This document shows positions 35,783-38,291 of a DNA stretch of 64,000 bases, in pieces (position 1 is the first letter of the stretch; each line of letters starts with the position of its first letter). Origin of the DNA: Elusimicrobiota bacterium (lineage in GTDB: Bacteria > Elusimicrobiota > Elusimicrobia > Elusimicrobiales > Elusimicrobiaceae). Made by a program: the position numbers and the translations under genes. The notes beneath the pieces were generated by a model. That model searched no databases. It saw nothing but the letters and a program-made list of their open reading frames with translations, and was not told the origin of the DNA. The DNA lies in contig JAQXJI010000006.1 of the NCBI GenBank assembly GCA_029008615.1, positions 1-64,000 of the forward strand. Direction: 5' to 3'.

Positions 35783-35986
35783 TTATTTTATTTGCGTAAC
35801 TTTATATCCGGCGTTTTCAACGGCCGCTTTGATTTTGTCGTCCGCTATGTCATTTTGGGCTTCTACGGTTGCGATTTTTGATTTTAAATCGACTTCCGCT
35901 TTAGCGCCCAAAGCTTCAAGCGCGGTTTTTACTCTTGCGGAACAATGCCCGCAGGCCATTCCTTCCACTGTAATATGTTTAATCAT
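35783..35986 (-). CDS. CopZ-like copper chaperone, possible internal in-frame translation product
   Basis: An ATG at 35986 inside the copA frame is preceded by AAGGAGG with a 5-nt spacer, a perfect ribosome-binding site. The product would be 67 residues, beginning MIKHITVEGMACGHC and folding as a ferredoxin-like metal-binding domain with a CxxC copper site. A free chaperone delivers Cu(I) to CopA-type pumps. E. coli makes a short CopA(Z) from copA by frameshifting; here internal initiation would give a comparable result. The likely history is loss of the copA stop codon, fusing it to a downstream copZ whose start signal was kept. Confidence 0.6.
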   Translation of the reverse strand: MIKHITVEGMACGHCSARVKTALEALGAKAEVDLKSKIATVEAQNDIADDKIKAAVENAGYKVTQIK

Positions 35987-38233
35987 AAATTCCTCCTTGT
36001 TTTTTATCGGGTTAAATCTCGCCAGCCTGAGTGAATTAAGAACTACGCATACAGAACTTAAAGCCATTGCGGTGGCCGCGAACATCGGGCTTAACTGCCA
36101 GCCCAAAGCTTTATAAAAAACGCCTGCCGCCAAAGGTATGCCGGCGGCATTATAGAAAAGAGCCCAGAATAAATTTTGTTTGATGTTCTTTATCGCGGCC
36201 CGGCTTAATTTAAGGGCGTAAACCGCGCCGGAAAGTTCCTTGCGCATTAAAACTATGTCGGCGGATTCTATGGCTATGTCGCTGCCGGCCCCTATGGCTA
36301 TGGCCAAGTCCGCGCGGGCCAAAGCGGGCGCGTCGTTTACGCCGTCGCCTATCATAGCGGCTGTTTTACCTTGTTTTTGAAGTTCTCTTACAAAGACTTC
36401 TTTATCCGATGGTAAAACTTCGGCCTTAAAATGCTCTATTCCCAGCCGCCCGGCTATATTCGCGGCGGTTTTGGTATTGTCGCCGGTCATCATATAAACT
36501 TCCAAGCCCATTTTTTTAAAATCGTCTATGGCGTTTTTTGCGTCGGGCTTTATATTGTCGGACAGTGCCGTAAGCCCGATAATTTTTTTATCCGAAGCAA
36601 AAAACACTGCCGTTTTGCCTTGGGCCGAAAGCTTTTCAGCTTTTTCTTCCCAACCGTCTGTCTGCGCGCCTTCGCTTTTCATAAATTTCAAATTGCCTGC
36701 CAAAGTTTCCTGCCCGTCGCAAAACGCTTTTATGCCAAAACCCTCTTTATATTCAAAATGTGCGGCTTTAATCGGTTTTATTCCGTTTTCCTCTGCATAT
36801 AGGCATATCGCTTTCGCCAAAGGGTGCGCCGATAAAGCTTCTACGGCGGCTGCGGTTTCCAAAAGTCGGGTTTTGTCTTCGGCGATGATATCGGTAACGG
36901 CGGGTTTGCCTTCGGTTACGGTGCCGGTTTTATCCAAAACCACGCAATTTACCTGAAGGCCTGTTTGTATGCTTTTTGCATTTTTTATCAGAACTCCGTT
37001 CCTTGCTCCGCTGCCGGTGGCGCACATTATTGCCGTAGGGGTGGCAAGGCCGAGGGCGCAAGGGCAGGATATAACTAAAACCGAAACCGCGCAGTTAAGC
37101 GCGAAAGAAAAATCATATCCCGCCGCAAGCCAAGCGGCCGCGCTTATAAAAGCTGCTGCTATTACGGCGGGGACAAATATTCCGCTTATTTTATCGGCCA
37201 GTTCCGCTATCGGCGGCTTGGAAGAATTTACATCTTCCATAAGCTTTACTATTTGGGCAAGAGTTGTCTGCGCGCCCGTTTTTTCAGCGCGGAACTTAAA
37301 GTAGCCGTCTGTGTTTATGGTGGCGCAAATCACTTTGTCGCCGATATTCTTTTCCACCGGCAGGCTTTCGCCCGTTACCAAAGATTCGTCCATAAATGCG
37401 CTGCCTTCAACTATCGTTCCGTCGGCCGGCAGACTTTGACCGGTTTTTACGGTTATAATATCGCCCGTTTTCAGTTCGCCCGCGGGTATAACGATTGTCT
37501 GTCCGTTCCTTGTAACTTCCGCCGTTTTTGGGGCCAGGTTTATAAGTTTTTCTATCGCGCCGGAAGTACGGCTTTTTGCGCGTTGTTCAAGGTATTTGCC
37601 CAAACTTATTACGGCTAAAATTACGGCGGCCGATTCAAAATAAAGCGCGTGCGCGTAGTGCATAACGGCGGAAGATTCCCCCGCACTTAGTGCAAAGCTC
37701 ATCGCCAAAACGGAATACAAACTGTAAAGCAAGGCCGCGCCCGAACCTATGGCTATAAGGCTGTCCATATTCGGGGCGAGGCGGAACAGCGCCTTAAATC
37801 CGGAAATGAAATATTTAAAATTGATAAACACCACCGGCATAGTAAAAAGGAGCTGCAAAAGGGCGTTTGTCATCGGCGGTAAAGCCTGTATAAAACTCAG
37901 CCCGATCATAGGGCCCATAGAAACGGTCATTAAAGGTATAAGCAAAATAAAAGAAGCTATAATTCGGGCTTTCGGCTCCGAGGAGTTCTGTTTTGCCGAA
38001 GGTTGAGTTTTGGCGGAATTATCTTCTTTTAAGGCGGCGTCGTAGCCGGCCTTTCTTACCGCGGCAATAATATCTTGCGCGGTTAAGGTTTGTTCCCGAT
38101 AATCCACGCTTAAAGTGTTGAGCAGCAAATTTACGCGGGCGTCTTCAATTCCCTTTAAAGCTTTTACGCTTTTTTCCACGGCAGCCGAACAGGCCGCGCA
38201 GGACATCCCGCTTACGGAAAATGTTTGTTTCAT
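35783..38233 (-). CDS. copA: Copper-exporting P-type ATPase with a fused C-terminal CopZ-like domain
   Basis: P1B-type ATPase of 816 residues. The N-terminal metal-binding domain has GMSCAACS (Cys12, Cys15). Membrane helices follow, with the ion-binding CPC (VISCPCALGLATP near 391). Then come the phosphorylation site DKTGT near 434, an HP locus (SAHPLAKAI) and GDGVNDAPAL. After the last membrane helix pair, residues 750-816 form a second metal-binding domain (GMACGHCSARV) that looks exactly like a free CopZ chaperone. The residues just before it (KNKEEF) are encoded by a perfect Shine-Dalgarno. It probably exports Cu(I). The C-terminal position of a metal-binding domain is unusual. Confidence 0.93.
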   Translation of the reverse strand: MKQTFSVSGMSCAACSAAVEKSVKALKGIEDARVNLLLNTLSVDYREQTLTAQDIIAAVRKAGYDAALKEDNSAKTQPSAKQNSSEPKARIIASFILLIPLMTVSMGPMIGLSFIQALPPMTNALLQLLFTMPVVFINFKYFISGFKALFRLAPNMDSLIAIGSGAALLYSLYSVLAMSFALSAGESSAVMHYAHALYFESAAVILAVISLGKYLEQRAKSRTSGAIEKLINLAPKTAEVTRNGQTIVIPAGELKTGDIITVKTGQSLPADGTIVEGSAFMDESLVTGESLPVEKNIGDKVICATINTDGYFKFRAEKTGAQTTLAQIVKLMEDVNSSKPPIAELADKISGIFVPAVIAAAFISAAAWLAAGYDFSFALNCAVSVLVISCPCALGLATPTAIMCATGSGARNGVLIKNAKSIQTGLQVNCVVLDKTGTVTEGKPAVTDIIAEDKTRLLETAAAVEALSAHPLAKAICLYAEENGIKPIKAAHFEYKEGFGIKAFCDGQETLAGNLKFMKSEGAQTDGWEEKAEKLSAQGKTAVFFASDKKIIGLTALSDNIKPDAKNAIDDFKKMGLEVYMMTGDNTKTAANIAGRLGIEHFKAEVLPSDKEVFVRELQKQGKTAAMIGDGVNDAPALARADLAIAIGAGSDIAIESADIVLMRKELSGAVYALKLSRAAIKNIKQNLFWALFYNAAGIPLAAGVFYKALGWQLSPMFAATAMALSSVCVVLNSLRLARFNPIKNKEEFMIKHITVEGMACGHCSARVKTALEALGAKAEVDLKSKIATVEAQNDIADDKIKAAVENAGYKVTQIK

Positions 38234-38291
38234 ATATATTTAGAATATCCTATGGAATATGCAGTTTCAAGGCTGCATATTTTTTTGTGAG

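Follow-up and report, generated by a model that had tools for sequence, protein, structure and literature searches.

The copA gene of this Elusimicrobiota genome very probably gives rise to two proteins from one reading frame, a full-length copper pump and a free CopZ chaperone made by internal in-frame initiation, and this double output appears to be maintained by selection. This reading is based on sequence comparison. The arrangement is not peculiar to this genome: an internal Shine-Dalgarno (SD) sequence followed by an in-frame ATG is widespread, being kept in more than a hundred bacteria from the gut and the environment.

A pump gene with an internal start signal

The window, that is, the whole stretch of 64,000 nucleotides analysed, lies on contig 6 of a genome of 1.66 Mb that is 99.6% complete. 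The features of the gene in this window are the following.

35783..38233, minus strand: copA(Z), copper P1B-type ATPase of 816 residues with an HMA domain at either end (Pfam HMA twice, E1-E2_ATPase, Hydrolase)
38039..38224, minus strand: N-terminal HMA domain, GMSCAAC, pump type (PF00403, 61.7 bits, and motif)
35987..36013, minus strand: linker NPIKNKEEF, from the last membrane segment to the C-terminal domain, containing the internal ribosome-binding site (translation and relatives)
35992..35998, minus strand: internal Shine-Dalgarno sequence AAGGAGG (sequence; duplex with the anti-SD of -11.4 kcal/mol; conserved in relatives)
35984..35986, minus strand: internal in-frame ATG at which free CopZ is predicted to start (sequence; 122/134 fused relatives have an ATG where the domain begins)
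35783..35986, minus strand: nested copZ, predicted 67-residue chaperone with GMACGHC, in the frame of copA (PF00403, 48.5 bits)

The open reading frame has the complete set of CopA features, an N-terminal HMA domain with CxxC, actuator and HAD domains, CPC, DKTGT and GDGxND, and scores 578 bits against NCBIfam TIGR01511 (copper-translocating P-type ATPase; cut-off 397). The original prediction described a second metal-binding domain of 67 residues with GMACGHC at the C-terminus, and AAGGAGG five nucleotides before an ATG just ahead of it. The domain is indeed present in the frame 38233..35783 (minus strand), and the start signal lies exactly as described, at 35998..35992 and 35986..35984. The frame is unbroken, and the SD and start codon fall at the domain boundary. 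The junction codons read AAC AAG GAG GAA TTT ATG ATT (N-K-E-E-F-M-I), the spacer is AATTT (35991..35987, minus strand), and 66 further codons, GMACGHC among them, follow the ATG. The internal SD is far stronger than that of copA itself (-11.4 versus -3.6 kcal/mol). AAGGAGG-N4-8-ATG is found three times in the 64-kb window, against 0.41 expected in shuffles; the motif by itself could thus be chance, and it is the comparison with relatives that decides. The window genome contains no other CopZ, since no HMA domain besides those of copA(Z) rises above the Pfam cut-off there; one sub-threshold match lies in a 1037-aa frame.

A perfect 8-bp inverted repeat (ATATGCAG/CTGCATAT, window 38257-38280), with seven T after it on the plus strand, is located between a GGDEF-EAL gene (stop 38292) and copA (start 38233). 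It may act as a terminator-like hairpin or as an operator of copA; the repeat was not seen upstream of copA in L006-L008.

The start signal is conserved beyond the needs of the protein

An exact-pattern scan of the GTDB contig collection, blind by design to the internal ATG and SD, returned 119 loci, fused and separate, 80 of them listed. Bacillota, Spirochaetota, Fibrobacterota, Deferribacterota, Pseudomonadota and other phyla are represented among the matches listed. Combined with Elusimicrobiota regions, these loci provided 134 non-redundant fused genes and 25 separate pairs, ATG and SD being no selection criterion. The fusions sampled by the scan are those with CxHC and a linker of about 20-40 residues, as its pattern required.

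An in-frame ATG lies 6-14 residues ahead of GM.C..C in 122 of the 134 fused genes, exactly at -8 in 100, and another plausible start is found at the CopZ domain in four more. The ATG is mostly spaced 5 or 8 nt from the SD. SD strength, a computed proxy (duplex energy with the anti-SD), has a median of -8.7 kcal/mol at the internal start, and 66% (65.6%) of the values are at or below -8. The other in-frame ATGs of the fused genes (n=2612) have a median of -2.4, with 1.1% at or below -8; all codon positions give -2.5, and separate copZ starts -9.3. When amino acids were fixed and codons drawn from each gene's own usage, the mean SD was -8.64 observed versus -4.86 in this synonymous-codon null (z=-15.6). 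The start signal is thus conserved beyond what the protein needs, and the same holds within each of four old fused clades. Lys-Glu pairs are coded AAGGAG in 50/68 cases at the junction versus 54/484 elsewhere. No gene with two tandem N-terminal HMA domains was found in the set, and the linker between the N-terminal HMA and TM1, together with K/E-rich windows, served as controls instead: 2.3% and 6.8% of their positions reach -8, versus 65.6% at the junction.

In all fused genes of the window's genus and of genus g6, the C-terminal domain begins with an in-frame Met preceded by an SD. Linker residues differ among the fused relatives, and in some of them the SD is in another codon register. Two genes have swapped the start codon, for TTG (L140) and GTG (L180), and have retained the SD at -12. 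The only Bacteroidota member (L093) has an ATG and no SD; many genes in Bacteroidota lack an SD.

Folding of 60-nt segments gives a minimum free energy of -3.3 at the internal start versus -14.0 at random codons, and structure there is weaker than in the synonymous null in 94/122 genes. Against shuffles of equal composition no special structure was detected (mean z 0.2), so the openness of the internal start comes mainly from A+T richness. In paired comparisons the internal SD is usually stronger than copA's own (-9.2 versus -6.5; n=68, p=4e-7), which is consistent with the production of more chaperone than pump.

Some nested CopZ proteins (L128, L144, L161, L078) start 13-17 residues before the metal motif, with a short N-terminal extension (e.g. 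MKLFGKKKEERSYILIDGMMC) that resembles the separate copZ of L107, L115 and L117 (MFGKNK...).

Origin and age of the fusion

With the metal motif masked, the C-terminal domain is closer to a separate-CopZ model than to a model of the pump N-terminal HMA in 134/134 genes, by a mean of 27.8 bits; the window domain scores 58.8 and 22.7 bits, respectively. By sequence the domain, an HMA of about 65-70 aa with MxCxHC, is thus clearly derived from CopZ and of the CopZ/Atx1 type, and not a duplicate of the HMA that the pump has at its N-terminus. The predicted 67-aa product passes the Pfam HMA cut-off (48.5 versus 24.8 bits). Its best NCBIfam matches are CopZ families with scores under their cut-offs, the highest being CopZ_AFE_1862 with 52.2 bits versus 85 required. 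The top match in the PDB is the C-terminal domain of Archaeoglobus fulgidus CopA (3fry, E=5e-8), followed by tandem pump HMAs and CopZ structures.

Separate genes are found close by. In L204 and L205, from the window's family, copA stops and the metal motif of CopZ follows after 37-38 nt in a different frame, the copZ starts reading TAAAGGAGAACTAC-ATG and TTGAGGAGAGCAAC-ATG. Relatives therefore have either the same fusion with conserved SD and ATG or separate copA and copZ with a like start signal, the two outcomes between which the original prediction had proposed to look. The fusion had also been attributed to loss of a stop between the two genes. This is too specific: as copZ is in a different frame from copA in L204 and L205, gain or loss of the fusion there would need a frame change as well. 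The constant element is the SD-ATG-copZ unit, and its in-frame state with copA varies.

In a tree built from 146 CopA cores (quick method, LG+G4), 51 fused genes, among them genes of Bacillota, Spirochaetota and Fibrobacterota, form a group with 100% support. The start is kept in 46/51. Although saturation of silent sites is to be expected at the median protein distance of this group, 0.85 substitutions per site, its SD is stronger than in the synonymous null, with z=-9.6. The two main Elusimicrobiota clades give z=-5.5 and z=-5.8, and the four genes of the window's genus z=-6.0. Median protein distances in the four fused clades are 0.31-0.85 substitutions per site. Fusion has been gained or lost several times, with at least seven changes on the tree. 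We rejected the idea that the SD is confined to recent fusions, given that old clades on the tree retain it beyond the synonymous null.

Two unfused pumps were observed in which copA ends in a stop and no downstream copZ was found in the stretch read. L206 (G228) is an unfused CopA inside the fused g6 lineage, with one HMA only in its genome at E<=1e-5; this genome may be without CopZ altogether. The CopA of L016 (G017, from the window's genus) groups with fused genes of family f15 and not with those of the window's genus, which points to horizontal transfer together with loss of the CopZ part.

Fused genes without the start

Fusions lacking both SD and ATG had been named in advance as the observation that would speak against a free chaperone. 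Such genes do occur, since 8/134 have no usable start (L106, L118, L126, L145, L156, L163, L170, L182), yet all eight genomes carry a separate HMA protein. The SD is mostly gone together with the start (mean -2.2 versus -8.6, p=3e-5), L106 and L163 retaining an SD-like stretch despite the lost start. A standalone HMA frame (<=130 aa, >=36 bits) is found in 8/8 start-less genomes versus 9/24 genomes with the start (Fisher p=0.003). A separate CopZ in the start-less genomes was expected beforehand, although the 36-bit threshold was picked after the table had been seen. With any standalone HMA above cut-off the count becomes 13/24 (p=0.03 versus 8/8); these p-values by genome count are optimistic because the genomes are related.

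Among 60 relatives of the window, a standalone HMA frame occurs in 0/12 fusion genomes versus 15/24 genomes with unfused CopA (Fisher p=0.0003), a contrast partly confounded by ancestry. In Bacillota, a separate HMA coexists with a start-plus fusion in the same 13/24 genomes, where the free CopZ released by the fusion would be redundant. We do not claim that fusion and standalone CopZ strictly exclude each other: this holds in the window's relatives and fails in Bacillota.

In f1 genomes without this CopA (e.g. G011:C25:33363, G007:C8:55685, G027:C3:330284), an HMA domain of 58-61 bits is found in a 417-440-aa frame. This is a different recurrent HMA protein.

Alternative explanations

The SD and ATG could be unused leftovers of recent copA-copZ fusions, with only the fused pump being of importance. 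The descent of the domain from CopZ, the at least seven changes on the tree and the separate versions nearby would fit such a history. However, a relict would have decayed, and the 51-gene clade and the window's genus keep the signal well beyond the synonymous null, so for the old clades this explanation is untenable; the loss of start and SD together also speaks against it, and overall we consider it very unlikely. SD-like sequences within coding regions have been proposed to cause ribosome pausing, and the signal might accordingly only slow elongating ribosomes and so give the membrane part time to fold ahead of synthesis of the C-terminal domain. Pausing requires no start codon, yet an ATG is found at the same residue in 100/134 genes with SD spacings mostly of 5 or 8 nt, the TTG and GTG replacements retain the SD, and SD and start are lost jointly. 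We regard pausing as the most improbable of the three alternatives.

Nearly as improbable is a purely regulatory role of the C-terminal HMA as a tethered metal-binding domain, with no free chaperone being made. A C-terminal site of A. fulgidus CopA, whose domain is the best PDB match, has been suggested to regulate that pump (PMC7558416), and eight of the 134 fusions retain the domain without a start. A tether alone, however, leaves the nucleotide-level conservation of SD and ATG unexplained. In the full-length pump, the domain may have a tethered regulatory role in addition.

A proposed mechanism and its relation to known systems

According to the dual-product interpretation, ribosomes starting at 38233 would produce the entire 816-residue Cu(I) pump, with the CopZ domain tethered at its C-terminus, while others would be recruited by the internal AAGGAGG and initiate at the ATG at 35986, giving the free 67-residue CopZ. 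The latter would carry Cu(I) in the cytosol and hand it over to the pump and possibly to other targets. We infer initiation at the internal ATG from the conservation of SD and ATG, which supports the earlier proposal that the same DNA yields a fused pump and a free chaperone; the short product would be stable, in excess over the pump and able to deliver copper.

The frameshift in E. coli copA was reportedly described by Meydan and by Drees in 2017, and CCCAAAG is its slippery heptamer. A search limited to that heptamer found none on the sense (minus) strand within 35783-38233, and the candidate chaperone here is C-terminal; an E. coli-type frameshift was therefore rejected. In E. coli, copA encodes CopA and CopA(Z) by programmed frameshifting (PMC7558416). 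Both genes would thus provide a copper pump and a free CopZ-like chaperone, but the E. coli chaperone is the N-terminal domain, freed by a frameshift at a slippery sequence with a pseudoknot, whereas here a C-terminal domain of CopZ type is provided with an SD and an in-frame start of its own. This would be a solution different from that of E. coli, in line with the original prediction.

Internal in-frame starts are known from cas8 and cas10d, which produce Cas11, a small protein from the C-terminal region needed in excess (PMC11899642). A small C-terminal-region protein from within a larger gene is likewise predicted here; Cas11, however, is a CRISPR effector subunit and not half of a transporter-chaperone pair, and the gene nested here is also found separate in close relatives. 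Operons of copA and copZ, e.g. in Haemophilus influenzae (PMC10187127) and in L065, L100, L204 and L205, encode the same two proteins with SD and ATG before copZ. Those operons have a stop codon between the genes; here there is none, so every full-length pump bears a CopZ domain. The A. fulgidus CopA domain (3fry) is a C-terminal HMA of similar sequence, CxHC included, a likeness at the protein level. To our knowledge, no internal start has been reported for A. fulgidus copA. We found no description of a copA-CopZ fusion with internal initiation in the open-licence papers searched. Two-product copA genes (by the E. coli frameshift) and internal in-frame starts elsewhere were known already; the combination of the two that is predicted here is well supported by sequence evolution.

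Dual-product copA(Z) genes probably form a class found widely in gut Bacillota and Elusimicrobiota and sporadically in other phyla, namely Spirochaetota, Fibrobacterota, Deferribacterota, Pseudomonadota and Actinomycetota. The class would be under active maintenance and independent of the frameshift in E. coli, with a separate HMA protein covering where the internal start has been lost. If this is true, the making of pump and chaperone from one gene has been solved in different ways, by frameshifting in E. coli and by internal initiation here. An annotation of one open reading frame shows the pump alone, and the chaperone would then be scored as missing in many gut bacteria. The gene would also offer a clear example of measurable selection on a start signal within a coding sequence, and it predicts a specific protein of 60-70 residues in many organisms.
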